This document shows, piece by piece, positions 1-18,803 of a stretch of 21,843 bases of DNA. A program made the position numbers and the translations under genes. Source of the stretch: a virus; IMG/VR virus record IMGVR_UViG_3300042459_000243, positions 1 through 21,843 of that record. One strand, given 5' to 3'. Position 1 is the first letter of the stretch, and every line of letters starts with the position of its first letter. The notes under the pieces are model-generated. The model did not search any database and was not told where the DNA came from. It saw nothing but the letters and a program-made list of their open reading frames with translations.

Positions 1-2296
1 ATCTAGTAATACTAAATCCTCTATAACCTCTATTCTTAAAGTGATATAAAAGTCTTGGTTTATTATTCTCCGCCAATATAGGCATACCATAAAATACACA
101 AGCCATCAATACATCTTCAAAAAATATTTCAGCAGTCTTTGGTCTTGCAACATACTCTAAAAAGAACGTGTTATTCGGTGCATTTGAAAAACTAAGACCT
201 GTAAGTCCGTGTAATGCTCCTTTAGACGCTCTGTTTGTATCTTCATCATAAGAACCATCTTTTCTAACTCCTTCCACTGTTCCTGATATATCGTATGTAT
301 CACAACCAAAAGAACCTATATCTCCATTCAAAGGGTGTTTTGAATACCCTCCGAAATTATTTCTCATTTCAAATTTGTTTCTCATCTCCTCTGGAGGAAT
401 CCAAGAAACCTTAAACCTACCTTTTTCATTAGGATGCCACTCAACAATAGTATCTTTTATTCCATCTTTCCATTGGAAATTACCAGTAACTATTCTTTTC
501 TCAGCCTCGTGGTCTTCATTAATTTTTACTTGCTCTAATATCTTTTCGATATTAAATGTTGACTGAAGAAGCTCGTCTCTGAACGCTTCATCTATTGTCA
601 TTGGAAATGCTCTTAACTCTTCGTTATAAGCAATATCACTTTCTTTTCTTTTACTACTTCTTTTAGCCTCTAAAAACTGAACACTTCCAACTGTCTTTTT
701 GTCTCCGTGAACATTGATGAATGAATCTCCTTTTTCAACAAGTTCGTGACACACACCATACCTGTCAGTAAATTCCTCCATATTTTTATGTGCAGGTAAG
801 AAGTAACAATACAAACCAGAAGGAGTCCTTCCAGTTATGCTATTTCTTTTGCTTATCTTAGATGCCTTATATAATCTATAAAACTCTTCACCACCTTTAT
901 TCATTGCATTTACCGTTGAACCAATAAATGCCTTACCAACTACTTTACCACCCGTATCAAATGTAGGTGACACCTGGCCCCAGTGTTTCTCGTAGTTAGC
1001 TGGCCTTGTCCATTTAGATGCCTCATCACCTAAATATCTATACATTCTCTGTCCATCATAAGACGAATCTTTTGTTGGCTGATAATCTATAAATGTATTT
1101 AGGTAGTCATCTGTATTTGTGTCTTTATTCTTTTTAAAACTTTTACTTCTATCTGTTGGTTTTGCAAACTCCAAGAAGTTCTTACTATCTTCTGAACCCT
1201 TTACAACTGGTTTAAAGAAGAAAGGTAAATTTAAATAACCGTATCTTAATTTGGAAAATGCCATTTTTGCATCTTCGTCTGATTTAGATGTCATACCTAT
1301 CCTAGCATTTGCTGTTGAGGTAGAATCGTTAAGCAACTGACATATTATCTGATAAGTAAAACCAGTACGTCTTGACTTAACAAATAATTCACCTAAACAT
1401 CTTGGGTCTACAATACAAGCCTCTGTAAAATAGAACATATCTCTCTGAGCAGTTCTAAAATCCATATAAGTACCTGTATCCTCCATTTTAACCCAGTTAA
1501 GTGCAAAGTAGTGAGTTCCAGTTAGATATTCAGCTTTACCATTATTCATAAACCAAATACCCTCTCTTCTTCTCCTAAACTCCTCTATTATATACTCGGT
1601 ATATGCCTCTGCATTATCTTGAGACAATCCACTTGGCGGCTCTTGCCTTCTCCAATACTGATTCTCTTTCTTTTCATTCCAAAACAAAATGTCTTTTCTA
1701 TATGGAATCTTAGGTAGTGTAATCTTTAAATCACCAACACTAATAACATCTCCTTTAGTTCCTTTCGGATCTATCATTACAGAATCGTTATCAGAGTCAT
1801 ACCACTCTTTGTAGTAGTTCTTTTTAGGTAAGAACTCACCAGTAGCAAACTTCTCTGGATACCCTCTTTTAAATTCATTCTCCTTCAGATTAATCTTGTC
1901 AGAATCTATTTGCATTCTAAGCTCAATTAACGAGGAATCAATTTCTATAATTGCTTGATGAATTGATGGTTTTACCGATATAGCTAAGTGGTGTTTCGAT
2001 GGATCTAACTCATCGTAGTCTATCTTGGCTCTAAGAGCCTCTCTAAGCACGTTTAAGGCAATATCTCCAGCCTTAACAAGTCTTACTACGTATTTCTTAA
2101 ATTTATCCTCAGAAGGCGAATTTGCACTATTCTGCCATCTTAATAATAATTCTTTTCCGTACTTAAATGAATCGACTTTTGCTTTTACAATTGTTTTTAC
2201 TTTGTCTGGCTCAATTATAGACATATCTGTATCATACTCCAATCCTTCGATTACAGTTTCTACAGCTATCTCTATGTCATTACTAAGTCCAATCAT
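1..2296 (-). CDS. terL: Terminase large subunit (C-terminus cut by window edge)
   Basis: This is the ATP-driven DNA-packaging motor and nuclease, which moves phage DNA into the prohead through the portal. The first 765 codons are visible and still open at base 1. The ATPase half shows VKSRRTGFT at residues 306-314, a loop in the Walker A position; LGDE with D424 and E425 as Walker B and catalytic glutamate; and IGSTV about 40 residues later as the coupling motif. PMTIDEAF then leads into the RNase H-like nuclease half, where GCDTYD (D666) is the likely first metal-binding aspartate. Upstream, the segment around WFMNNGKAEYLTGTHYF recalls crAss-like and marine-phage terminases (from memory). 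The start overlaps the stop of the upstream gene as ATGA (2293-2296), which indicates translational coupling. The Walker A loop lacks the usual lysine after its glycine. The identification is firm; the lineage is inferred. Confidence 0.93.
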   Translation of the reverse strand, partial: MIGLSNDIEIAVETVIEGLEYDTDMSIIEPDKVKTIVKAKVDSFKYGKELLLRWQNSANSPSEDKFKKYVVRLVKAGDIALNVLREALRAKIDYDELDPSKHHLAISVKPSIHQAIIEIDSSLIELRMQIDSDKINLKENEFKRGYPEKFATGEFLPKKNYYKEWYDSDNDSVMIDPKGTKGDVISVGDLKITLPKIPYRKDILFWNEKKENQYWRRQEPPSGLSQDNAEAYTEYIIEEFRRRREGIWFMNNGKAEYLTGTHYFALNWVKMEDTGTYMDFRTAQRDMFYFTEACIVDPRCLGELFVKSRRTGFTYQIICQLLNDSTSTANARIGMTSKSDEDAKMAFSKLRYGYLNLPFFFKPVVKGSEDSKNFLEFAKPTDRSKSFKKNKDTNTDDYLNTFIDYQPTKDSSYDGQRMYRYLGDEASKWTRPANYEKHWGQVSPTFDTGGKVVGKAFIGSTVNAMNKGGEEFYRLYKASKISKRNSITGRTPSGLYCYFLPAHKNMEEFTDRYGVCHELVEKGDSFINVHGDKKTVGSVQFLEAKRSSKRKESDIAYNEELRAFPMTIDEAFRDELLQSTFNIEKILEQVKINEDHEAEKRIVTGNFQWKDGIKDTIVEWHPNEKGRFKVSWIPPEEMRNKFEMRNNFGGYSKHPLNGDIGSFGCDTYDISGTVEGVRKDGSYDEDTNRASKGALHGLTGLSFSNAPNNTFFLEYVARPKTAEIFFEDVLMACVFYGMPILAENNKPRLLYHFKNRGYRGFSITR

Positions 2297-2835
2297 AAGT
2301 GAAGTATAATTCTATTTTGATTAATCATATATAACTTCTCGTCAAATATGTTAAATTCGTATTCAGAATCTTTTTTAACACCAACTAAAGAACCATTCTC
2401 TATTGATGTCATATTTTTATTTTTGTACTTTAACGTACATATTTGCTCGTTCTCCTTGTAACCTTCGTACTTGTCTTCAATATACGTTGGCTCTATAAAA
2501 CAAAATGGAGGCAGAGCTATCTTACTTCCGTCATTTTTAATTACCATATAAGCTAACTCTTTCTCAACATAGAACAAATCATCTTCTATGTGATACTTAC
2601 TCTCTAAAGGAAATCCTTGATTGTTATACTGAATTCTAAATGTATTGTGATGTACAATTAATAAATCAGAAACTTCTACATCTCCTTCATAGCCAATAGG
2701 AGTAGATACAACCTCTGCAATTCTTTGCGTAAAGTTGTGGTCTTCAACAGATATATTTAATACCAATCCATTGGAGTTGTTTGAGTACCTCTCACTATTG
2801 AAAGGTCTCACTATGAAATAATGTGGACTTCTCAT
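2293..2835 (-). CDS. Putative tandem GroES-fold (co-chaperonin-like) protein
   Basis: The protein has 180 residues and no certain family. Residues 6-100 follow the GroES layout: an opening strand YFIVRP, a polar loop ending in NGLVL (compare GGIVL of the GroES mobile loop), IAEVVSTP in the place of GEVLAVG, VEVSDLLIVHH in the place of VKVGDIVIF, and a closing DDLFYVEKELAYMVI. Residues 109-180 appear to repeat the plan, from FCFIEP to GSLVGVKKDSEYEFNIFDEK and a closing hydrophobic strand; SEYEF...EKLY is a phrase I associate with GroES-like phage proteins. It sits directly before the terminase with a 4-base stop-start overlap, so the two are probably made together. It might assist terminase or capsid folding, or be a structural protein that borrowed the fold. 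The fold assignment is inferred from the pattern alone. Confidence 0.5.
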   Translation of the reverse strand: MRSPHYFIVRPFNSERYSNNSNGLVLNISVEDHNFTQRIAEVVSTPIGYEGDVEVSDLLIVHHNTFRIQYNNQGFPLESKYHIEDDLFYVEKELAYMVIKNDGSKIALPPFCFIEPTYIEDKYEGYKENEQICTLKYKNKNMTSIENGSLVGVKKDSEYEFNIFDEKLYMINQNRIILHL

Positions 2836-3064: not shown

Positions 3065-3090
3065 ATTAAATTAAATTAAAAAAATATATG

Positions 3091-4332: not shown

Positions 4333-7300
4333 TTATTTGTTTTCTAATTTATTTATTCTTTCTTCTAACTGAGTTATTTTATCTATAGCTTCTTGTAATG
4401 CAGCTGTCAATAAAGGAACAATTTTAGAATGATCTATACCTTGATACTTAGGTTTTCCATCTTTATCTAATTCGTCTTTTACCCCAACAACAGCCGCTGG
4501 TATAACTTCTTGAACTTCGTGTGCTATAAATCCATCTACAATTATATCAGGTCTATTTATAAAATTAAAGTTTACTGGTTTAAGCAGTTTTAATCTATCT
4601 AAAGCCCCATCTATTTTTACTACATTCTCTTTTAATCTGTAATCAGAAGATGTATTGTAGCTAGTTGAAGAACCATCGTAATTTATGCTTCCAACATTTG
4701 AACCTGCATTGTTTTCAAAATTTATAAGTCCAGCGCCAAAAAGAGGGTTCTCATTAACTTGAATGGTCATAGCTCTTTGTCCTTCAATAGTTTCCCTAAC
4801 GTGAACCCTTGCGTTTGGACTAGAAGTGTTAATACCAATATAACCATCTCCGTCTATTAGCATTGAGTCACTACTTCCTCTTCTAAATATCGTATTATTG
4901 TTAGCCCCAACATCTATTATCCCAGCCGCAGAAAAAACATCGCATATTAAATCCATTGACATAGCCACTATTCCTGTATCGTGGTTAACTCTAATTGTTG
5001 GAGAAACTAAAGAATCTGTGCCTTTGACCTCAAGGTTTGTAGAAGGTGTTGATGTTCCAATACCAATATTTCCTCCGCTAGTTACCCTCATTTTCTCAGA
5101 GCCGTTTGTCCAAAGAGATATAGGATTTCCTCCTGCCTGTGTAATAATCATACCACCAGTTTGACCTGAACCCGAGCTTACAAATGATGTTGACGGGAAT
5201 GCTAAATTAGTAGAAGGATAGCTTCTTAGGTCAATTCCATTACCAGAATTATTAAATGCTCCTACAAACGCATAAGCTGATCCGCCAGTACTTAAATTTC
5301 TAGACACTATTCCATTAGCCCCATTTGTTGTATAATCAACAACAAGTTTATTTCCAGGGCTTGTGCTTCCAATTCCTACGTTACCTGAATCATCTATTAC
5401 CATTCTACTGGCACTTCTCTCGTCGTATATGTAGAATTTAGTGTCTCCAGATCTCAGTCCTGTTGACCATATGTAATCTCCTGATCTATTGTAATATGTT
5501 CTAGCAGCCGTTGTGCCATCTATATTTACACCTACACTTGTTCCGTATACGTGCAATTTTTCATTTGGAGCAGTAGTGCCAATTCCAACATTGCCTGATG
5601 GGGAAATGTACATTGGGACTGTAAATGTAGTTCCGTTATACAAATACCAAGTAAAACTACCATTTGATGTGTTATTGGTTGATAAAAAGTAACTGGCTCC
5701 TCCGTTGTGTCCAATATCAAGAAATTGATTTGTTCCGTCTAAATCTTGAATTCTAACCACAGATTCACCGCTAGCGGATACGTGAAGTTTACTTTGAGGG
5801 CTTGTTGTTCCAATACCCACATTACCTGTTTCAGTAACCCTAACTTTTGAAGTCGAGTTAGTATATATATCAAATGGAGAATTAGTATATGTTCCTATAA
5901 GTCCTCCAGTAGAAGTTATTGAAGCTGCTACCCTAACGTCTGTTCCACCTGTTCTAGCAACTCTAAGCACAGATGTCCCTGAGGCTGGCTGTATATCTAA
6001 TAATGCAGTTGGACTTGTTGTGCCAATACCAACGTTTCCTGCGGATGTAATACGCATCTTCTCAGAACTTGCGTTATTTGCAGGATGAGTATAAAATGTC
6101 ATTGCTGTCGCAGCTGTAGAGGTGCTTTCTACGTGTGTACCTATTCTGTTAAGAGTTTCAGAATCTACTTGTGAAGAAATAAATGGAGTGTCTGTACCAT
6201 TTGACCACACAGTCGCTACGCTAAGTTTTGTTATAGGACTTGTTGTTCCTATACCCACATTGCCATCCCCTCTAATAGTTAAATATGTTCCTTGATCATA
6301 GGTACTATTGTATAGGCCGCCAAAGAACATAGATGTTTTTGAAGATCCGTCATAAGAAGTCCATATTTTACCTGTAATACCGCTGCCGTCGTGCCAAGTT
6401 ATCGCTCCTCTTTGTGCGTTTGTTATATCATAATTAACACCTAATCTCAGCAATTCAGATGATGTATTTTGAAACCCAACTGCCAATAAAGAACCAGGGC
6501 TAGTTGTTCCAATACCCACATTACCTGATGAGGTGATACGCATACGTTCGGTATTTGTAGCCCCTGTAAAGAATGTTATTTTACCACTTCCGTATTCTTG
6601 AGCAAGTCTTAACTCCTCATTTCCTGCGTCTTGTTGTATATATGATCCACCACCAACTTCTAACTTTGTAACATACGTTGATGGGTATTTTATTGCAAGT
6701 CTTTGATACACAGAAGAATAAACGTCTAATTGGCCATTTGGACTCGTTGTTCCAATACCTACGTTACCACCTGCTGTAATATTAAGTATTTTATTTACAA
6801 AAGAACCACCAGTATCATTGCCAATATGGAATGTACTACTATTAGTAGCAGTTACACCAATTTTCCAGGTATTTATTCCTGGATGGTCAATAGCATAAGA
6901 ACCTGCTGTACTCCCTAGTGTAGATGTTGTTAAAACTGTTCCAGCAACCTCTAATTTAGCGGTTGGACTACTCGTACCAATTCCTACGTTGCCAGAGGAG
7001 GTAATACGCATTCTTTCAGAACCAACAGTTGCAAAAGCTAAAACTCCTAATGCAGTTTGTGCATTTAATAGTACGCCAGCATCGCTATTACCAGAATTAA
7101 ATGTTGAAATAACAAGCCCCCTATCATTATTTTGACCAGAGAATGTAGCAACAGCTCCGTTAAGAATTCCTCCAAGAACGTGTAATCTATTTGTTGGTGT
7201 GCTTGTTCCAATACCTATGTTGCCGTCATTTTTTATATAAATCCTATCAGTAAATGTACTACCTGTTTGGGTAGTAGATTGTAAAATAGCAAAATCTCCA

Positions 7301-10300
7301 TATACGTTATAATCATTATTAACTAACCAGCTTCTGCTTGAAGTATTTGCATTGTAATTAATTAAAAGACCCCCTTGGGTTGTGCCAGCCCCATTGCTTC
7401 CTTGAACTTGAACTCTTGCACTAAATCTACCGTCACCTACCACATCTAATTTAGCAGCTGGACTTGTTGTTCCAATACCGACATTGCCTGATGAAGTAAT
7501 ACGCATACGCTCTGATCCAGACGTATTTATAGCAAGTACCCCATCAGCAGGATAGTTTATAGAAGCTGACTCTGATACGCCGTTTCTACCTATTCTAAGT
7601 ATCTCCCCGTAAGTTGCTTGACGTAATATTCTAGCTGGCAACGCATCATAAGAACCAACTATATCTATCTTTGCTCCTGGACTTGTTGTCCCAATACCTA
7701 CGTTACCCGTTGAAGTAATACGCATTCTCTCGTTTCTACTCCCAAAAGAAGTAAAGAATTTTAGATTGGCTACATTTACTCCTACTCCTTCCCAATCTGA
7801 TTCTACTCCTGCCCAAGCATTTAAATACCCAGGCTCATTTGTTCCAAATCTTAAAGAACCCCAAGTTCCTGTGTTTCTTCTAATTGATATATCCCCTGAT
7901 GAAACTTCTAACTTTTCAGACGGACTTATAGTTCCTATACCTACGTTAGTGCCATTATCATAAATTAATGAATTACCTAAGGTACTTGCTGTGGTGAATT
8001 TAGAAACGTAATTTGTTGTACCTGATATTGCTGCTGTTGATCCAGAGCTTCCTGTAATGCTAGTAGCTAAAGGCTTATATGTTAAGACGCTTACGTCTGT
8101 GCAATCAGAGATGTTAGCATCGGTCCAAGTCCATCCGCTTGAATAGTTTGCTTGATAATTACTACTATAAACACTTTCCACATAAAGTTTTGACCAATAT
8201 GGTGGAGATGGAAGATAAATAACTACAAATCCACTTGCGTCTTTTGCTAAACTAACAGTTGGACTCCAAGCTCCATTTGATATTATTGTTTCACTCCAAA
8301 AAGTCTCTAAATAATAGTGCCATCCAAGTGATAAAGATACCATTTGTTCTGATCCATAAGCAAAGCCTTTTATATTTACTGTAAAATCAGCTCCTCCAGA
8401 AGCAAAAGGTATTGTTGTATTAATTCTTACTTGTGTTTGATTATTGACATTTATATCAAGAATCCCAAGCGATAGTTTTTTACCTCCAGCCGACACTATT
8501 CCTGTTGCAGCAATATTTCCAGACACGTCAAGTTTAGCGCTAGGAATCGTTGTTCCTATACCTACATTGCCTGCTGAGGTAATACGCATTCTTTCTGTAT
8601 CGTTGGTATGAAAAATAGTAGCAGTATTTTCATAATTCCTTACATACGCATCACTTGCAGATGATAATTGTAATTGAAAACCATCTCCCAAACCATATCC
8701 ACTATTTGCATCTTGAATTGCTATAATTGAATTTCCTGCACTACCCCCAACTACAAATTTTCTATTTATGTCAGTAGTTCCTATACCTACGTTGCCAGTT
8801 GTTGTAATACGCATACGCTCCCCTGAAGCAACTCCATCATAAGTAGAAAACAATAAGTTACCAGTGGTTGCTCCAGATACCGCTATTTGTGCATATCCAC
8901 CTGAACTATTACCAAAGGCTAAAGCGTTTGCGCCATTTATACGAGCTCTACCGTTAATAACAAATTTATCAGAAGGTGCTGTATCACCAATTCCTACGTT
9001 ACCATTTTCTTTAATTGAAATTCTATAGTCCCCTAAAGAATTATATATATACATTCCTTTACCAGAATCAATTGATCCGTCAGAACCTATCTGCCAATTT
9101 CCTCCGCCTGAGGAAGCGTTGAAAATAAAAGAATTAGCTTTTGCAACACCACTAACGTCAAGTTTTTGTGAAGGCGAACTCGTTCCAATACCAACGTTGC
9201 CTTCATACGTCAAAGTCATTTTTGTATTGGATGTACTTACATTTGAGCTATCGTTACTTCCTTCTAATGCAAATTGCAAATTACCTCTTCCAGCTCCATC
9301 TCTACTTATAAAATAGATTGCCCCTTTTTGGTAAGAATTTCCTGTATATCCAAATGTTACTCCAGAATATTCGCCAGGAGTTCCTATATTATAATTCAAT
9401 AATCCTAACGTATATGAATTACTTCTGTCAACTGTTAAAGGAAAGTTTGGGCTACTTGTCCCAATACCTACGTTACCTGCAGAAGTAATACGCATCTTTT
9501 CAGTTGAATTTGACGAAACAACTAAATCGTGATTTGAAAAAGTACCTAAAAATCCAGCAGTTGCAGAAATTTGCATTCTTAAATCAACTGTTCCATTTGT
9601 AGTTTGAATAATTCCACCTGTTGTTGGGTTATAAACAGTAAATCCAGTGTATCCACTTGCTGAAATTGGCGAACTTGTCCCAATACCTACGTTTCCACCT
9701 GATGGATTTAAACTTAATTGTCTTGCTGTACCATTTGATAACGCTCCTTGAATAGAAGGTTCTCCTGCTGAATCTAATCCAATATAAACTCTTCTATTAC
9801 CTGAATCATATCCAGTAATAAAAGAATACCCAGCTCCATCTACTTGCAATTTAGTAGCTGGACTACTTGTTCCTATTCCCACATTACCTGCTGAAGTAAT
9901 TATCATTTTCTCACTTGGAGAAGTTGAACCTGCTGGTGTTGTTTGGAAAGATAAATAACCAGGTGTGCTGGTCGATGTCCAAGCATCTTGTGAGAAGGAG
10001 TATATCTGACTTCCTACTTGATACGTTGTGCCTGTTGAATATCCTCTAAATCTATAAGCTCCTAATGAAACACCGCTCGTATTTGGTATAAAGTTTCTAT
10101 TGCTATTAAAGAATGAAAATGAACCTGATGTAGTAACAGAAGCATCTCCGTCAAAAACCTCTAGCCTGGAAGTAGGACTTGTGGTTCCAATCCCTACGTT
10201 ATTTGTCGACCCGTTAATTGTAATTTGTGTTCCATCACATCCAAAATAGGCGTTTCCACTATAAGCATCAATAGTTGCTGTTCCGTTTGTATTTTGACCT

Positions 10301-11871
10301 ATGCCTGCTCTTCCAATTACGTGGAGTTTGTACCCTGGGTTTGCAATTCCAATACCTACATTGCCTGAAGCGGTTACAGAAAATTGACTTCCTTCAGCTT
10401 TACCGTAAGTAGTAATATGGCTAAATGATTTTGCTGGTGTTACCGAGTCGTAAACATACCCTAAACCTGCTGATTGATCTACAGCAATATCTCTACCGAT
10501 TAATATATTGCTATAATATTTTGATGAACTTAAATAAGTTGATTGTATAAATTGTACAACTGAACTATCTGAAACAATGTGTTGTTTATAAGAAGGACTA
10601 GATGTTCCAATTCCAACATTACCAGTGGAGGTAATACGCATTTTCTCAGATCCTTCTGTTGCAAAAGCAATAGCAGCCGAAACCCCAGTTCTTGGCTGAA
10701 TAAGTAAACTACCTGCAGAATATCCAAAACCACTATTAGTTGTTCCAATTATGGCTTTTATCGAAGACGAAGGAATCGCTGTGCTTATTAAGTTGTTTAA
10801 AATTATTCCAAGATTTGCGCCAGGTGCACCAACATTTATTGGTCCAGAAACTGTTAAAAGATAGTCAGGAGTTGAGGTTCCAATTCCCACATTCCCAGAC
10901 GAAGTGATACGCATTCTTTCAGAAGCACTTGTTAAAACCCTAAAATTATCATTACCAACTATAGCTTCAGTTGATGTTCCTCTACCGCAATATAATGAAA
11001 GTTCATAATCAGATACTGTTCTTATTAAATTAGAGGCAGGAGCTCCTAATGTATCAAAAGCCAATGTACTACCCACTCCACCAATATGTAATTTATATGC
11101 TGGAGAAGTTGTTCCAATACCAACATTTGTGCCATTATCAAATATCAAGCTATTTCCAAGTGTAGTACTTCCAGTGAATTTAGGTACATAGTTTGTTGTT
11201 CCATTTGCATTAGCAGGTGTATATCCTAACCAACCAGCAATTGTTTTATTAACCCATAATGTTCCATTAAATCCTAATAAATGTCCATTAACTGGTGTTG
11301 TGGTTTTTAAATCGACATCGTGTAATTCATCAAGCTCAAATCCGTTTTGAACTTTAACAAATATCTCTCCGTTATTTGAGTTTACTCTTGTAACAATACC
11401 AATAAAAACTAAATGAGCTGGAGCATATGGTTTATTAGTTAATCCATAAATTAGATTTCCATTTGTGCCTAACCACACAGGGTCTCCTGCTGTAGCTCCA
11501 TTTGTGTTTAATCCTGCAAGTAAGCCTTCAGCTATAACATTACCAAATCCATTGGTAGAAACAGTAGAAGCCATCAATCCCATTGTTTTTGACGACGTAG
11601 CCTCTGAAGCATTCGATGCTAATCCTACAATCATATTTGTTCCATCAGCAGATGTAACATATACAGCCTGTCCTTTATTTATAGCAACTCCAGCTTTTAC
11701 TTGATGTTGTATATTAGAAGCTACTCCAGGAGCAACTCCTAAATCTGAAAGCATTTCTGATCCAGTTCTATATTTTATGATGCCACCATCGGATACTAAG
11801 AATTTATCAGTATCTGTGGTAGCATTATTTAAAGCTTCTAATTGAACTTCGCTTTTAAACTTTTGACTCAT
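4333..11871 (-). CDS. Giant tail fibre with 26 NVGIG repeats and S74 chaperone domain
   Basis: This 2512-residue protein is a trimeric-type receptor-binding fibre. Residues 1-50 contain TDTDKFLVSDGGIIKYRT, which resembles the N-terminal modules of the neighbouring adaptor proteins. Residues 51-220 form a distinct domain. From about residue 249 to 2352 the motif (G)NVGIGTxxP, commonly preceded by EKMRITSxG and followed by xKLxV, recurs 26 times at irregular spacing. A block beginning GTTNYV occurs at residue 224 and again at 1284. Just before the second copy, residues 1131-1275 hold a tryptophan-rich domain without repeats. The C-terminus is a peptidase S74 intramolecular chaperone: SDYRLKENV from S2409, GFIAHEVQEVIP, then a coiled coil. 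By family precedent it trimerises the fibre and cuts itself off before S2409, releasing about 104 residues. Confidence 0.92.
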   Translation of the reverse strand: MSQKFKSEVQLEALNNATTDTDKFLVSDGGIIKYRTGSEMLSDLGVAPGVASNIQHQVKAGVAINKGQAVYVTSADGTNMIVGLASNASEATSSKTMGLMASTVSTNGFGNVIAEGLLAGLNTNGATAGDPVWLGTNGNLIYGLTNKPYAPAHLVFIGIVTRVNSNNGEIFVKVQNGFELDELHDVDLKTTTPVNGHLLGFNGTLWVNKTIAGWLGYTPANANGTTNYVPKFTGSTTLGNSLIFDNGTNVGIGTTSPAYKLHIGGVGSTLAFDTLGAPASNLIRTVSDYELSLYCGRGTSTEAIVGNDNFRVLTSASERMRITSSGNVGIGTSTPDYLLTVSGPINVGAPGANLGIILNNLISTAIPSSSIKAIIGTTNSGFGYSAGSLLIQPRTGVSAAIAFATEGSEKMRITSTGNVGIGTSSPSYKQHIVSDSSVVQFIQSTYLSSSKYYSNILIGRDIAVDQSAGLGYVYDSVTPAKSFSHITTYGKAEGSQFSVTASGNVGIGIANPGYKLHVIGRAGIGQNTNGTATIDAYSGNAYFGCDGTQITINGSTNNVGIGTTSPTSRLEVFDGDASVTTSGSFSFFNSNRNFIPNTSGVSLGAYRFRGYSTGTTYQVGSQIYSFSQDAWTSTSTPGYLSFQTTPAGSTSPSEKMIITSAGNVGIGTSSPATKLQVDGAGYSFITGYDSGNRRVYIGLDSAGEPSIQGALSNGTARQLSLNPSGGNVGIGTSSPISASGYTGFTVYNPTTGGIIQTTNGTVDLRMQISATAGFLGTFSNHDLVVSSNSTEKMRITSAGNVGIGTSSPNFPLTVDRSNSYTLGLLNYNIGTPGEYSGVTFGYTGNSYQKGAIYFISRDGAGRGNLQFALEGSNDSSNVSTSNTKMTLTYEGNVGIGTSSPSQKLDVSGVAKANSFIFNASSGGGNWQIGSDGSIDSGKGMYIYNSLGDYRISIKENGNVGIGDTAPSDKFVINGRARINGANALAFGNSSGGYAQIAVSGATTGNLLFSTYDGVASGERMRITTTGNVGIGTTDINRKFVVGGSAGNSIIAIQDANSGYGLGDGFQLQLSSASDAYVRNYENTATIFHTNDTERMRITSAGNVGIGTTIPSAKLDVSGNIAATGIVSAGGKKLSLGILDINVNNQTQVRINTTIPFASGGADFTVNIKGFAYGSEQMVSLSLGWHYYLETFWSETIISNGAWSPTVSLAKDASGFVVIYLPSPPYWSKLYVESVYSSNYQANYSSGWTWTDANISDCTDVSVLTYKPLATSITGSSGSTAAISGTTNYVSKFTTASTLGNSLIYDNGTNVGIGTISPSEKLEVSSGDISIRRNTGTWGSLRFGTNEPGYLNAWAGVESDWEGVGVNVANLKFFTSFGSRNERMRITSTGNVGIGTTSPGAKIDIVGSYDALPARILRQATYGEILRIGRNGVSESASINYPADGVLAINTSGSERMRITSSGNVGIGTTSPAAKLDVVGDGRFSARVQVQGSNGAGTTQGGLLINYNANTSSRSWLVNNDYNVYGDFAILQSTTQTGSTFTDRIYIKNDGNIGIGTSTPTNRLHVLGGILNGAVATFSGQNNDRGLVISTFNSGNSDAGVLLNAQTALGVLAFATVGSERMRITSSGNVGIGTSSPTAKLEVAGTVLTTSTLGSTAGSYAIDHPGINTWKIGVTATNSSTFHIGNDTGGSFVNKILNITAGGNVGIGTTSPNGQLDVYSSVYQRLAIKYPSTYVTKLEVGGGSYIQQDAGNEELRLAQEYGSGKITFFTGATNTERMRITSSGNVGIGTTSPGSLLAVGFQNTSSELLRLGVNYDITNAQRGAITWHDGSGITGKIWTSYDGSSKTSMFFGGLYNSTYDQGTYLTIRGDGNVGIGTTSPITKLSVATVWSNGTDTPFISSQVDSETLNRIGTHVESTSTAATAMTFYTHPANNASSEKMRITSAGNVGIGTTSPTALLDIQPASGTSVLRVARTGGTDVRVAASITSTGGLIGTYTNSPFDIYTNSTSKVRVTETGNVGIGTTSPQSKLHVSASGESVVRIQDLDGTNQFLDIGHNGGASYFLSTNNTSNGSFTWYLYNGTTFTVPMYISPSGNVGIGTTAPNEKLHVYGTSVGVNIDGTTAARTYYNRSGDYIWSTGLRSGDTKFYIYDERSASRMVIDDSGNVGIGSTSPGNKLVVDYTTNGANGIVSRNLSTGGSAYAFVGAFNNSGNGIDLRSYPSTNLAFPSTSFVSSGSGQTGGMIITQAGGNPISLWTNGSEKMRVTSGGNIGIGTSTPSTNLEVKGTDSLVSPTIRVNHDTGIVAMSMDLICDVFSAAGIIDVGANNNTIFRRGSSDSMLIDGDGYIGINTSSPNARVHVRETIEGQRAMTIQVNENPLFGAGLINFENNAGSNVGSINYDGSSTSYNTSSDYRLKENVVKIDGALDRLKLLKPVNFNFINRPDIIVDGFIAHEVQEVIPAAVVGVKDELDKDGKPKYQGIDHSKIVPLLTAALQEAIDKITQLEERINKLENK
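4810..11129 (-). repeat. Array of 26 degenerate NVGIGTxSP-coding repeats
   Basis: Twenty-six copies of a short coding repeat lie inside the giant fibre gene. At DNA level most read, on the plus strand, as variants of CCAATACCTACGTTGCC. Copies are separated by about 55 to 110 codons of unlike sequence, so this is a protein-level repeat and not a tandem satellite. Departures from consensus include GIANP, GDTAP, GTTDIN and the last copy YIGINTSSP. The conserved cores could support recombination among copies. Confidence 0.85.
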
Positions 11872-14982: not shown

Positions 14983-15231
14983 TTACCATAATTTAGTACA
15001 AGCTAAATGTCTAGGTGTTCCAGGTTTAGCTGTAGCACATTTATGTCTTGCGTGAAAATTCTTTTTTCTATCTCGATCTTTGTGTTTTGTGAAATCAGAG
15101 TAACCTTTTGCGCCAGCGTGAACCAAAGTTTCCTTTCCATTTACGCAATACTTCTTCATTATTTTTTTACCTGGCCTAGTTGATTTTCTAACTTCACCAC
15201 ACTTCATACTAGCTTTTACTGAACCTGCCAT
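14983..15231 (-). CDS. Small basic cysteine- and histidine-containing phage protein
   Basis: The product has 82 residues from an ATG at 15231. It is strongly basic, with cysteines at 11, 29, 65 and 78 and several histidines. The core NGKETLVHAGAKGYSDFTKH, then DRKKNFHARHK and the terminal LW, resembles a short family found in phages and large DNA viruses (DUF5754/DUF5872-like, recalled and not checked) of unknown function. The four cysteines could bind zinc, but no regular CxxC pairs are present. An in-frame TTG at 15261 would extend it, but that TTG lies inside the promoter element at 15259-15266. It is the first gene of the transcript containing the lysis module. Confidence 0.7.
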   Translation of the reverse strand: MAGSVKASMKCGEVRKSTRPGKKIMKKYCVNGKETLVHAGAKGYSDFTKHKDRDRKKNFHARHKCATAKPGTPRHLACTKLW

Positions 15232-15258
15232 AAATAAAATCTTTTTAATAAATCTTTG

Positions 15259-15266
15259 CAAAGATA
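15259..15266 (-). promoter_or_regulatory. Promoter -7 element TATCTTTG, leftward
   Basis: On the minus strand TATCTTTGCA lies 28 bases before the ATG at 15231 and matches TANNTTTG. It would drive the basic protein, lysis genes and possibly the fibre genes. It is divergent from the chaperonin promoter 17 bases away. The 16 bases TGCAAAGATACGAAAT around it also occur at 20357-20372. Confidence 0.65.
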
Positions 15267-15282
15267 CGAAATAAAAAAAGTG

Positions 15283-15290
15283 TATATTTG
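15283..15290 (+). promoter_or_regulatory. Promoter -7 element TATATTTG, rightward, for groEL-groES
   Basis: TATATTTGCA matches the Bacteroidota -7 element and sits 22 bases before the groEL ATG. A TTTG occurs at 15255-15258, but the 24-base spacing is longer than usual for a -33 box. The -33 region overlaps the leftward promoter element, so the two promoters may compete for polymerase. Confidence 0.65.
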
Positions 15291-15312
15291 CATTATAAAA
15301 AATATAAATTTT

Positions 15313-16887
15313 ATGATAATTAAAGAAGTTAAATTTAATGAAAACGCAAAAGAACCCTTAATTAAAGGGATATCTACCATTTGCGATGCTGTATCTTCAA
15401 CTATGGGATATAGAGGAAGAACAGTACTTATCGAGAGTCCTGGTGGACTTCCTATCGTAACAAAAGATGGCGTATCTGTGGCTGATTCTATTTTTTTAGA
15501 GGATGCAACAGAGAGTTTAGGCTGTGAGTTTGTAAAACAAGCTTGTAGAAAAACAGTTAACGAGGCTGGTGATGGAACAACAGGAACCGCTGTATTGACT
15601 AAGTCTATTATTGATAATAGTCAGAAATACTTAAGTAATGGTGAGTCTGCAATAGATTTAAAGAACGGAATTGAAGAGGGTGTTAAAGATGTTATTAAAT
15701 ATATCAAGGAAACATCTAAAGAGGTTGATGACTCTTACTTATTTGACGTAGCTAGAATATCTGCTAATAATGATTCAGAGCTTGGTGAAATTATCGCTAA
15801 TGCATTTATTTCAGCTGGTAAGAATGGAGTTGTATCGTATGAGCAGTCAGATAATTCTGATACATATGTTGATTTTATCGATGGTATGCCTGTAGCTAGA
15901 GGTTACGAGTTTGAAGGTTTTGTGAATAAACCAGAGAACAGAACTATCGAGTTCAATAATAATCCATTGATTCTATTGTCAAATAGAAGATTTCAAAACA
16001 TCAGAGAACTTTTACCTGTTGTTGAGTACTGCCACAAAGCCAATAAAGAGTTATTAATTATCTCTGAAATGGAGTTTGAGGTTATGAAGGTTTTATACGC
16101 AAACAAAAAGAATGGACTTAAGGTAGCTACAATTATCCCACCAAGTATTGGAGAGAAGAGAAGAGATTACTTAACAGATATTTCTTTAGCAACTGGTGGT
16201 TTAATTATTGACCTTGATACATCTACAAATATCGATGGGTATGATATGGATGAATTACTAGGCAAATGTAGTAGACTAGTAGTGACTAAAGAGGATACCG
16301 TTTTATTCTTTAACGAAAAGCCTAATGCGGAAAGGGTTCAATCAAAGATTGAAGAGTTAAACAAAGTAATCAAGAATTCAAACAACAATCTTGAGAAGGA
16401 ATATTTAAAAGACAGAATCTCTAAGCTTGCTTGTGGTGTTTCTGTGATTAAGGTCGGTGGAACAACAGAGGTAGAAACTAAAGAGAAGCTTGACCGTGTT
16501 GATGATGCAATTAACGCAGTTAAGAGTGCAATCTCTGAAGGTGTTGTTGTAGGAGGTGGTTTAGCACTATATAACGCCTCTCTAAAGCTTCAATCCACAT
16601 CAAAAGGATATAGATGTCTACTTGAGTCAATTAAGGCCCCTATGCGCACTATATTGAATAATGCAGGTGTATCTCTAAGCGATATTGAAGCAGACCTATT
16701 GGTTTCTGATTACAACTACGGATATGACGTTAAGGATTATGAAATCGCAGATATGTTTGAGAAGGGTATTATAGATCCATCAAAGGTTATTAGATTAGCC
16801 TTAGAAAATGCTGCAAGTGTAGCTACAACAGTTTTATTAACAAACACAACAATAACACATAAGAGAAGCAATGAAAGTAGTTCTTAG
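15313..16887 (+). CDS. groEL: Phage GroEL chaperonin
   Basis: The 524-residue chaperonin subunit should form a ring that folds proteins in the cytoplasm using ATP, with GroES as lid. Key residues align with E. coli numbering: TKDG with D52, AGDGTTGT with D87, and VDDA with D398, plus GVSVIKVGG and EGVVVGGGLAL in the equatorial ATP site. The apical domain keeps GYEFEGFVNKP in place of E. coli GYLSPYFINKP, so the substrate and GroES-binding face has changed. The C-terminus ends THKRSNESSS and lacks the Gly-Gly-Met tail usual inside the bacterial cavity. The ATG at 15313 fits the promoter at 15283-15290; an in-frame TTG at 15256 lies upstream of that promoter and is rejected. It is transcribed against all its neighbours and overlaps groES by 17 bases. 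It looks catalytically intact. Confidence 0.96.
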   Translation: MIIKEVKFNENAKEPLIKGISTICDAVSSTMGYRGRTVLIESPGGLPIVTKDGVSVADSIFLEDATESLGCEFVKQACRKTVNEAGDGTTGTAVLTKSIIDNSQKYLSNGESAIDLKNGIEEGVKDVIKYIKETSKEVDDSYLFDVARISANNDSELGEIIANAFISAGKNGVVSYEQSDNSDTYVDFIDGMPVARGYEFEGFVNKPENRTIEFNNNPLILLSNRRFQNIRELLPVVEYCHKANKELLIISEMEFEVMKVLYANKKNGLKVATIIPPSIGEKRRDYLTDISLATGGLIIDLDTSTNIDGYDMDELLGKCSRLVVTKEDTVLFFNEKPNAERVQSKIEELNKVIKNSNNNLEKEYLKDRISKLACGVSVIKVGGTTEVETKEKLDRVDDAINAVKSAISEGVVVGGGLALYNASLKLQSTSKGYRCLLESIKAPMRTILNNAGVSLSDIEADLLVSDYNYGYDVKDYEIADMFEKGIIDPSKVIRLALENAASVATTVLLTNTTITHKRSNESSS

Positions 16888-17122
16888 TAACATTTTAGTT
16901 AAGGAGATAAAGGAAGACGTAAAGAGTAGTAGCGGCCTTTATCTTGGAGATGGTCAAGATATTAAATTCCACAAAGGTGAAGTTATCGCAATTGGAGAGA
17001 ATATTGATAAAGTTGGTATAGGAGACATTGTTTGGTTTGACAGACACCGAACATACCCGATTAACTACGAGGGAATCGAATACATAGTTATGGGATACGA
17101 AAATGTAGTAATTGTAGAGTAA
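16871..17122 (+). CDS. groES: Phage GroES co-chaperonin, shortened
   Basis: The 83-residue lid protein should cap GroEL during folding. The start LSNILVKEIKEDVKSSSG leads into a mobile loop with GLYLGDGQDI, where LYL stands for the IVL that docks on GroEL. KGEVIAIG follows, then VGIGDIVWFDRH and the closing YENVVIVE. E. coli GroES has 97 residues; the shortage lies between GEVIAIG and GIGD, where only about six residues replace the roof hairpin. T4 gp31 also lacks this roof, giving a taller, open dome. The gene overlaps the end of groEL by 17 bases, so translation is probably coupled. The order groEL-groES is the reverse of the usual bacterial operon. Confidence 0.93.
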   Translation: MKVVLSNILVKEIKEDVKSSSGLYLGDGQDIKFHKGEVIAIGENIDKVGIGDIVWFDRHRTYPINYEGIEYIVMGYENVVIVE

Positions 17123-17157
17123 AAAAAATAGAGAGGGTTTAAATTCCCTCTCTTTTT
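17121..17157. terminator. Two-way rho-independent terminator between convergent genes
   Basis: GAGAGGG (17131-17137) pairs with CCCTCTC (17146-17152) around an 8-base loop. Five Ts follow on the plus strand (17153-17157), and eight Ts follow the hairpin on the minus strand (opposite the A-run 17121-17128), so it can stop transcription both ways. The leftward gene's stop codon (17139-17141) lies in the loop. Confidence 0.88.
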
Positions 17158-17831
17158 ATTTCATCCTCTAGGTATATTCCAGTACCACCATTTATTATTT
17201 CATTCCTCCTCTTGTTATATTCAACCATCAATCTAGCTATCCTCTTATCTTTATAGCTAGTCTCATAAGAGTTAAAGAATTTATTGCTTGATGAGTACTC
17301 GCTCATTTCTTCTTGAAGTGTTAGTTTTTTATAAATACTAGCCATCCTTCTGTTTGCCTTCATACTTAATCTGTACAATCTATTCCCAGCAACTTTAATT
17401 GATGAATTGCCTGGCATCTCATCCACAAGCTCCATATCTATAAATCGCTTTATTGATTTATTCTTATGAAGCATTGCGGTATTATATATGTCAAACTCCT
17501 TCTTTGTGAATAAAGGTTCTGAGTAAAAATACATTAGCATTTCTATTTCATCTATAGTTAAATTGTATTGTACTGAAGCCCAACGCTTTACAATACCATA
17601 GAACTTCATAAAGTCAAATTCTCGATTTGCTGTTATGATTTTTACATTCTTTTTCTTGTATGTCTTCTTTACGGTTCTCTCACCTTTCCTCTTCATCGGC
17701 CTGTACTTCTTTGCTTTCTGTACAGTTCCATCAGATATTGGTTTTACTAAGAAGTCTTTGATTTCAGATAAAACCTTCTCTTCTTTTAGGACTTTTTTAT
17801 TCTCCTCTAGAAAGTCTTTAAAATCACTCAT
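17139..17831 (-). CDS. MarR-like winged-helix phage protein
   Basis: The protein has 230 residues. Residues 1-65 are highly charged with a Lys/Arg-rich stretch (KKYRPMKRKGERTVKKTYKK). Residues 80-170 look like a MarR-type winged helix: LTIDEIEMLMYFYSEPLFTK, an extended helix region, then VDEMPGNSSIKVAGN as wing and RLYRLSMKANRRMASIYKKL as closing helices. The C-terminus (175-230) is polar with KDKRIARLMVEYNKRRNE. I recall similar uncharacterised proteins in many marine phages. It may regulate transcription or be a DNA-associated protein of the replication or head region. It follows a small basic gene after three bases and ends inside the shared terminator facing groES. Confidence 0.68.
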   Translation of the reverse strand: MSDFKDFLEENKKVLKEEKVLSEIKDFLVKPISDGTVQKAKKYRPMKRKGERTVKKTYKKKNVKIITANREFDFMKFYGIVKRWASVQYNLTIDEIEMLMYFYSEPLFTKKEFDIYNTAMLHKNKSIKRFIDMELVDEMPGNSSIKVAGNRLYRLSMKANRRMASIYKKLTLQEEMSEYSSSNKFFNSYETSYKDKRIARLMVEYNKRRNEIINGGTGIYLEDEIKREGI

Positions 17832-18104: not shown

Positions 18105-18483
18105 ATTTCTTCATTTCGTTTAATAATTCGTATCTCTCTCTTCTAAGTAACTCAAACTCAACGTATTCCATAGCATCATCAATTCTACCATCAAGAATTA
18201 AATCCTCTATGGCTTCAGAAAAGTATATAGCCTTGCAATTATCTGATGCAAAACCATCCTCGTCAACAATCAAGTCGTCTTCTTGATCGCAAACTATTGA
18301 TGCGATAACTGAAATTGGTATTATACCAGAGAAGAAGTCGTCTTTATCAATTAGTCTTGCGTCTTCAAATTGTTCGTATATCATATCTGACATACCCTTG
18401 TGGTCTTGATTCTCTAACATCAAGTCTACTCTATCGAATAATTCTACATTTAATTGATTAAAGACTGTGCTATTGCTTTCCAT
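18088..18483 (-). CDS. Hypothetical acidic protein
   Basis: The product has 131 residues, unrecognised, and strongly acidic (for example DQEDDLIVDEDG and ELFDRVDLMLENQD). It seems mostly helical, with a hydrophobic stretch at about residues 50-65 (FFSGIIPISVIASIV) that is too short and too acidic in surroundings for a confident membrane span. It overlaps the HAD-type gene upstream by 34 bases and the basic-protein gene downstream by 17 bases. The acidic and basic partners being adjacent could mean they bind each other, but this is only a suggestion. Confidence 0.65.
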   Translation of the reverse strand: MESNSTVFNQLNVELFDRVDLMLENQDHKGMSDMIYEQFEDARLIDKDDFFSGIIPISVIASIVCDQEDDLIVDEDGFASDNCKAIYFSEAIEDLILDGRIDDAMEYVEFELLRRERYELLNEMKKYEKNS

Positions 18484-18803
18484 TGGTTATCTGTTACGTT
18501 AATTACTTCTGTATATGTACTTCTACTTATTTCTCTTAGTTCTGTTTCGTCATTATCAAAGTGTATATCTACATCTTCCATATAGTGCATCTTCTTATCT
18601 CCATCTGTGTAAACAATTTTGTTTATACCAACCTTTTCTGTTACTTTTACTAAGTCTTGATTAAGATACTTTGAATGCCTTGTTGTTACCACAATTACAT
18701 TATATCCTGCTTTTATAAGTTCTATTGCAAGTTCTTGTACTGATGGAAGCGACAATGTTCCATCAAAGTCAAATGATATTGTTATTTCTTTATTTTCTAT
18801 CAT
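18450..18803 (-). CDS. Small HAD-superfamily phosphatase-like protein
   Basis: The product has 117 residues. Motif I is ITISFDFDGTLS with nucleophile D12 and D14. Motif II is VIVVTTRHS (T40 or T41). K70 or K71 may serve as motif III, and DIHFDNDE (D83, D85) is motif IV, binding magnesium with D12. The catalytic set therefore looks complete in a compact protein with almost no cap domain. Small HADs of this kind in phages act on nucleotides or polynucleotide ends, but the substrate cannot be read here. It lies four bases after the preceding hypothetical gene and overlaps the following acidic-protein gene. Confidence 0.82.
   Translation of the reverse strand: MIENKEITISFDFDGTLSLPSVQELAIELIKAGYNVIVVTTRHSKYLNQDLVKVTEKVGINKIVYTDGDKKMHYMEDVDIHFDNDETELREISRSTYTEVINVTDNQWKAIAQSLIN

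Follow-up and report, generated by a model that had tools for sequence, protein, structure and literature searches.

Chaperonin genes carried by phages have been described in several forms. Phage T4 gp31 folds a 56-kDa capsid protein together with host GroEL (PMC6318259), some phages have both GroEL and GroES (PMC7185714), Maribacter phage Panino has GroEL and GroES (PMC11590407), and GroEL is present in 36 environmental genomes of the phi38:1 group (PMC5332604). Here, we analyse the IMG/VR virus record IMGVR_UViG_3300042459_000243, whose 21,843 bases form the window, that is, the whole stretch of DNA under study. In this window a groEL and groES pair sits alone on the plus strand amid minus-strand genes, and a second, longer GroES-like gene lies next to the terminase. 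We read the three genes as a phage-owned group I chaperonin of the Elemovirus lineage, composed of one chamber protein and two co-chaperonin genes, and we put the probability of this reading at roughly 0.55. The pair by itself is a further copy of an already annotated phage module and adds little; what is new is the three-gene set with a predicted tandem co-chaperonin. The genes in question are as follows.

15313–16887, plus strand: groEL, 524 amino acids (aa), ATG start; a group I chaperonin with D52, D87 and D398 kept and without the GGM tail.
16871–17122, plus strand: groES, 83 aa, overlapping groEL by 17 nucleotides (nt), with LYL in the mobile loop and a 7-residue roof segment.
2293–2835, minus strand: second GroES-like gene, 180 aa; domain 1 at about 1–103 (disordered loop 18–34), domain 2 at about 104–179.
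2–2296, minus strand: terminase large subunit, cut off by the edge of the window; the long GroES-like gene lies immediately upstream of it.

The first-pass annotation had proposed a complete GroEL and GroES pair on the plus strand of a phage, facing against its flanks, and both the Pfam matches and the gene map agree. GroEL matches PF00118 (Cpn60_TCP1) over residues 25–517 (E 1.3e-53, 182.9 bits against a curated cut-off of 34.3), the short GroES matches PF00166 (Cpn10; E 6e-11, 42.7 bits against a curated cut-off of 21.1), and a PHROGs search returns phage GroEL and GroES families for the respective proteins. Two GroEL subfamily models of NCBIfam score above their cut-off, with the equivalog TIGR02348 below it (452 of 582.1 bits). 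The start proposed for groEL at 15256 did not hold: it is the first TTG of the open frame and falls within the promoter region, and the annotated Elemovirus start is equivalent to 15313. The remaining plus-strand open frames of the window reach at most 157 aa, and we take them to be antisense to the minus-strand genes; the annotated map of the Elemovirus genome elemoC_14-1A has a matching stretch with only groEL and groES on that strand. A search of the window for transfer RNA genes found none.

GroEL is 37.8% identical to its E. coli counterpart. At the ATP site, 12 of 14 residues agree with E. coli, among them D52, D87, D398 and the GDGTT motif, and the three aspartates, predicted from the outset, each align to aspartate and are invariant in an 11-sequence phage alignment. 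The pairs R197-E386 and D155-R395 are kept, as are K4, K105, R452 and S463 among nine equatorial or inter-ring residues. Of ten apical residues in the groove that receives GroES and substrate, three match E. coli (Y199, F204 and L234), two differ mildly (L237 to V, L259 to M) and five more strongly (S201 to F, Y203 to G, A241 to H, V263 to Y, V264 to A). Ratios of nonsynonymous to synonymous substitution rates (dN/dS) point to purifying selection on GroEL (0.05–0.13, four pairs), GroES (0.06, one pair; two further pairs saturated) and the long GroES-like gene (0.06–0.10, three pairs), values that are rough because dS is often above 1 and near saturation. Judged by its sequence, the cassette looks functional.

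The gene at 2293–2835 was missed in the first-pass annotation. Its Elemovirus counterpart is annotated as co-chaperonin GroES or cpn10, and the window protein matches phrog_13932, ‘co-chaperonin GroES’ (46/46 members scanned). Pfam Cpn10 has no match in the window protein and is reported in 4 of 12 relatives (best E 2e-6). The family is common, a relative being encoded in 572 of 599 pattern-matched IMG/VR stretches among the matches listed; the loci used here are the best 80 of the 572, picked by two motifs, one of which covers residues 30–37 of the long protein. An AlphaFold2 model built on 46 sequences has a mean predicted local distance difference test score (pLDDT) of 81, and residues 18–34 alone fall below 50. 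Its best PDB matches in Foldseek are 7ekq_R and 7ekq_Q, from an entry whose chains are named Cpn20 co-chaperonin subunit (7ekq_R) and Chaperonin 23 and which comes from Chlamydomonas (PMC5780408). VIA-align superposes 153 residues, within 1–179, on 7ekq_R (Z 10.8, root-mean-square deviation 4.7, 14% identity), and residues 103–179 on single GroES chains with Z up to 9.2; the Foldseek and VIA-align results speak solely for the families listed. Among viral models, the nearest named relative is the chaperonin cpn10 of Cellulophaga phage phi18:3, and profile comparison matches domain 2 to GroES (89%, E 2.5e-7). On its model, the 180-aa protein is predicted to be a tandem two-barrel co-chaperonin with one mobile loop, and we infer that it acts as a lid. 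Literature searches confined to open-access papers listed no title or abstract describing a tandem or double GroES in phage.

The distribution of the long gene points the same way. Among the virus records fetched, 13 carry it and are 50 kb or longer (G003, G004, G006, G009, G014, G015, G018, G022, G023, G024, G025, G027 and G031); each of them also encodes GroEL and the short GroES, GroEL being split over the record ends in G023 and present as two pieces in one frame in G025. Given this complete co-occurrence, the long gene accompanies phages with a chaperonin of their own, as expected of a second co-chaperonin. Among 15 shorter records searched for GroEL, which may be fragments, it was found in 6 and not in 9.

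As for the short GroES, a hydrophobic tripeptide defines the mobile loop of this family, and in the window protein SSSGLYLG is aligned to TAGGILLP of Acinetobacter GroES, with residues 18–29 below pLDDT 50. Its roof segment has 7 residues, as against 11 in Bacteroidota GroES, and Foldseek finds GroES structures at a best E of 9.2e-4, on a weak model (pLDDT 67).

The cassette was also said to have its own −7 element and a terminator, and both are well supported. The elements concerned are these.

15283–15290, plus strand: −7-like element TATATTTG of the cassette promoter, identical in 8/8 aligned sequences.
15255–15258, plus strand: TTTG, a possible −33 element, with a 24-nt spacer to the −7 element; TCTG in 4/8 aligned rows.
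15259–15266, minus strand: −7-like element TATCTTTG of opposite direction, pointing towards the leftward genes; conserved in 8/8 aligned sequences.
17130–17153, both strands: bidirectional terminator hairpin between the convergent groES and 17139–17831, from fold z-scores and T-runs.

In the alignment of the window with seven relatives, some of them mutually close, TATATTTGC is identical in 8/8 sequences and the upstream block TTTGCAAAGATACGAAATAAAAAAAGTGTATATTTGCA is mostly conserved across all eight; the DNA farther upstream has diverged. The Bacteroidetes promoter consensus is TAnnTTTG with an upstream TTG, and the 24-nt spacer to TTTG would be a little long for it. Since TATCTTTG points left, the region looks like a compact divergent promoter. 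Over both strands, the window holds 11 copies of TAnnTTTGC where 5.0 would be expected, a count reached in 3 of 100 shuffles, and several minus-strand copies stand shortly upstream of genes (near 3090, 3910, 15258 and 20357). The folding energy of the hairpin is −15.7 kcal/mol (z −3.8) and, for the opposite strand, −15.0 (z −3.4); runs of T flank it on either side. By these signals, the two chaperonin genes make up a single short operon, which has a conserved promoter element of Bacteroidetes type and a predicted terminator.

Two further claims, on gene order and orientation, stood in part. The groEL-groES order is real, and it recurs in every fetched record of the Elemovirus lineage and of a second phage group, that of ctfjg026, where both genes were found; groES comes first in Callevirus, immuto and DAC16. 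The order is therefore not peculiar to the window, since other lineages also place groEL first. The orientation against the operon is equally real. What fell is its interpretation as a foreign insertion: the guanine-cytosine (GC) content of the cassette, about 0.35, is similar to that of the surrounding window in either direction, so base composition gives no sign of foreign DNA, and the block is inverted relative to distant relatives. The neighbours of the cassette are relevant here.

17139–17831, minus strand: 230-aa protein, convergent with groES in the 10 compared regions having a homologue (its immediate neighbour in 9 of them) and turned round along with the cassette.
14983–15225, minus strand: DUF5754 protein (Pfam), the divergent neighbour.

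In the gene-map comparison, the block of groEL, groES and the 230-aa gene is turned round as a unit at about the same place, and DUF5754 lies on the terminase side of the block in the window, in elemoC_14-1A and in the distant regions L172, L173, L174 and L178. GroEL and the long GroES-like gene lie on different strands in all 15 records of the Elemovirus lineage, whereas they share a strand in all 11 records of the second group, as read from contig ranges and coordinates. The former are the window, elemoC_14-1A, G001–G009 (G001 being approximately the window's own virus), G011, G014, G034 and 3300046005_000561, with a long gene at least 59% identical; the latter are G015, G018, G020–G025, G027, G031 and ctfjg026, at most 38% identical. 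This inversion, which takes in the convergent neighbour gene as well, is characteristic of the Elemovirus lineage. The reversed direction of the cassette would thus have arisen by inversion of the block from groEL to 17139–17831 relative to more distant relatives, and for that reason it is not evidence of foreign insertion. The 230-aa protein has no match in Pfam, PHROG or NCBIfam; on visual inspection it resembles a winged-helix protein, and the annotation of its counterpart in ctfjg026 is repressor protein. A small protein near the cassette (18450–18803, minus strand) is 81% identical in Elemovirus, where it is annotated as a HAD family hydrolase.

Searches of a phage collection place the window among Flavobacterium phages. 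GroEL matches 258 records and GroES 74, and for each protein 68 of these lie at 80–90% identity; 68 GroEL-matching records have Flavobacterium sp. BAL314 as host, the same number as at 80–90% identity. These 68 Elemovirus records include some RefSeq copies of others. In elemoC_14-1A the annotation reads chaperonin GroEL for the first gene and co-chaperonin GroES for the second, and both run counter to the genes around them, as in the window. Identities of 84% for the terminase large subunit (TerL), 85% for the long GroES and 89% for GroEL, with colinearity to elemoC_14-1A, mark the window virus as Elemovirus-type. It is probably a separate species or genus, as just 36% of the window aligns to Elemovirus by megablast, at 80%.

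In a 34-row GroEL tree, the Elemovirus lineage (seven rows) and a second phage group including ctfjg026 (eight rows) are each supported at 100/100, and they adjoin with modest support (84/81; 85/76 in a 29-row tree), at a junction where the tree program warns of long branches meeting. The larger tree left out two giant-phage rows and the smaller one seven divergent phage rows, including those two. Eight cellular GroELs, three of them from Bacteroidales and none from a Flavobacteriaceae chromosome, cluster elsewhere (99/94) with Bacteroides phage DAC16, which stands beside Bacteroidales, and Vibrio phage SRILMA, which stands beside proteobacteria.

The notion that most chaperone-bearing phages carry only one of the two components found no support: 9 of 14 GroEL-bearing phage records, picked from a spread list of such phages, also have a Cpn10 match, one of the nine being marginal. 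A bacterial-looking Acinetobacter record was excluded from this count. Filed as Acinetobacter phage MD-2021a (L017, CAKLQH020000021.1), it has a bacterial-type groES-groEL operon amid bacterial metabolic genes and is probably a bacterial contig. The crAss-like phages phi14:2 and cr111_1 (L024, L028) have GroEL and no Cpn10 match in the whole record; they may hide a diverged lid, and a 129-aa phi14:2 protein is among the fold matches of the long protein.

The first-pass annotation had named as a candidate client the large fibre encoded nearby.

4333–11871, minus strand: repetitive fibre, 2512 aa with many repeats and a C-terminal Peptidase_S74 endosialidase chaperone (PF13884).

This is unlikely, and the fibre was set aside as an obvious client. 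The fibre carries Peptidase_S74 (E 9.7e-11), an intramolecular chaperone; the closed GroEL cage has a limit of about 60 kDa, and 2512 aa lie far beyond it. In an Elemovirus genome with the cassette, of which 41.6 of 61.0 kb were searched, the fibre has no match at E ≤ 1e-10. By analogy with T4, the likeliest client would be the capsid or portal protein. In the mechanism we propose, the GroEL ring would capture newly made phage proteins and the short GroES would close it. The reduced roof of the short lid and the missing C-terminal tail of GroEL may make for a roomier or more open cage, comparable to that of T4 gp31. When the packaging genes are expressed, the long tandem protein could act as a second lid, either by itself or in a mixture with the short GroES, and might adapt the same chamber to late virion proteins, such as the capsid or portal.

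Several observations weigh against one chamber with two lids. No NCBIfam GroES model scores above its cut-off for the short GroES (40.6 of 109 bits at best), and because the GroEL equivalog is missed too, both proteins are divergent; the structural model of the short GroES is weak, with a mean pLDDT of 67 and 42–56 in the other four models. The idea of a larger cage is itself weak, since the roof of the short GroES is just four residues shorter than that of Bacteroidota. Within GroEL, the ATP site carries the changes T91 to G and N479 to D, R58 and D83 are not kept, and neither are A109, E434, E461, V464 and N467 of the E. coli type between the rings. In the long protein, profile comparison finds no similarity of domain 1 to GroES or to domain 2 (probability 0.0 and 0.2), and VIA-align barely tested parts other than 97–179; the tandem reading draws on the predicted model and the PDB match, as the sequence supports domain 2 only. 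Finally, the gap to the terminase is 0.8–1 kb in three of six compared distant relatives, and in ctfjg026 one small gene separates it from the long gene.

Part of this evidence would fit another account, in which the GroEL-GroES pair is an ordinary one and the 180-aa protein, of GroES fold but not a lid, has a structural or packaging role in the terminase-portal module and no contact with GroEL. We regard it as possible, if on the unlikely side. The long gene lies immediately upstream of the terminase in the window, elemoC_14-1A, Callevirus phi38:1 and G014, and about 0.3–1 kb before the matched terminase part in the distant relatives L172, L173, L175, L179 and L180. A chaperonin cpn10 is grouped with portal and structural proteins among the eight core genes of Pervagoviridae, the text leaving unstated which cpn10 gene is meant (PMC8776804), and domain 1 is without GroES-like sequence. 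This account sits less well with a closest modelled fold that is the co-chaperonin Cpn20, or with the GroEL and short GroES found in all 13 long records that have the long gene. Nor would it predict the 17-residue disordered loop at the GroES mobile-loop position, which is about as conserved as the rest of the protein: over 24 dereplicated rows, mean top-residue frequency is 0.70 against 0.65, a comparison biased by the choice of loci with a motif covering 30–37, although S28 and N18 lie outside that motif.

A different question is what the chaperonin is for. The pair may serve mainly host takeover or stress tolerance, acting on host or early phage enzymes and not in virion assembly, a purpose compatible with two lids. 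The cassette has its own promoter-like element and runs in the same direction as the Elemovirus replication genes; it is conserved between the window and Elemovirus, yet their fibre and tail genes differ; and giant-phage chaperonins act on endolysin in vitro (PMC9598537). We nevertheless find this rather improbable, as the second lid-like gene sits by the packaging genes and the methylated GroEL of phi38:1 is tabulated both for infected cells and for free virions (PMC13288928). The phi38:1 data are supporting and not direct, because identity to the GroEL of the window is no more than about 35% for two phages of the same genus, phi40:1 and Calle_1. By far the least probable is a recently captured host groESL operon or a host-phage assembly join, which is largely refuted and in favour of which no evidence was found. 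The worry about a join is answered by the 68 phage records that match both proteins and by another IMG/VR record, of 48,957 bases, which has the same arrangement with 97–100% protein identity across the region. Capture from a host is rejected within the sample used: six exact peptide patterns, which reach close relatives only, were run against 84,980 species of bacteria and archaea and hit one GroEL relative, at 36%, in a metagenome-assembled genome of Tissierellaceae, and the approximately unbiased (AU) test on the 29-row tree rejects a grouping of the Elemovirus lineage with Bacteroidota GroEL (p 0.00035; 0.0048 with DAC16 added). The pair is thus not nested in the host-phylum chaperonins sampled.

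If the reading of one chamber and two lids is correct, the cultivated carriers, Elemovirus on Flavobacterium and Callevirus on Cellulophaga, offer a compact system in which to ask why a phage has its own chaperonin and why it would need two lids. The three-gene set would also give a straightforward point of comparison for chloroplasts, where single and tandem lids are mixed. A bolder version, which we offer as a long shot, is that widespread phages, with cultivated members on Bacteroidota, independently reached the chloroplast arrangement: one ring with single- and tandem-domain lids, possibly mixed in one cap (e.g. three tandem chains and one single chain filling seven positions), the tandem lid being made with the packaging genes and the chamber re-tooled late in infection.

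Compared with known systems, the locus is closest to Elemovirus (vB_FspP_elemo; host Flavobacterium sp. BAL314), with GroEL 89.2% and GroES 85.5% identical in the rows listed. It shares with elemoC_14-1A the gene order, the strand against the flanks, the neighbours, the promoter element and the second long GroES-like gene; in Elemovirus, however, groEL and groES overlap by 1 nt and not 17, and the genes that lie between cassette and terminase, the 2512-aa fibre of the window among them, are not the same in the two. Callevirus (phi38:1, phi40:1 and Calle_1, on Cellulophaga) likewise has a phage GroEL, a nearby short Cpn10 and the long GroES-like gene, but its GroES lies upstream of GroEL with one gene between, and its GroEL is on another branch and about 34–36% identical (phi40:1, Calle_1). 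Podoviridae sp. ctfjg026 (MW202828) and its IMG/VR relatives have groEL first, a convergent homologue of the 230-aa gene and the long gene upstream of the terminase, whereas their cassette is on the terminase strand and their GroEL is 35–39% identical to the window's.

The giant phages EL, OBP and AR9 also encode GroEL-like rings, which differ in being reported to act without a co-chaperonin (PMC9598537), although the EL paper leaves a distant GroES possible (PMC7185714). T4 gp31 is a phage-made lid of GroES fold without roof loops (PMC6318259), and the roof of the window's short GroES is reduced; gp31 has a longer mobile loop and uses host GroEL, whereas here GroEL is phage-made and the loop of the short lid has the length of bacterial GroES. 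The chloroplast, finally, has single and tandem lids, Cpn10 and Cpn20, for one chaperonin system (PMC5780408). Cpn20 is the best fold match of the modelled long protein, from which the phage protein differs in being 14% identical, in having its disordered loop in domain 1 only and in its putative GroEL partner.

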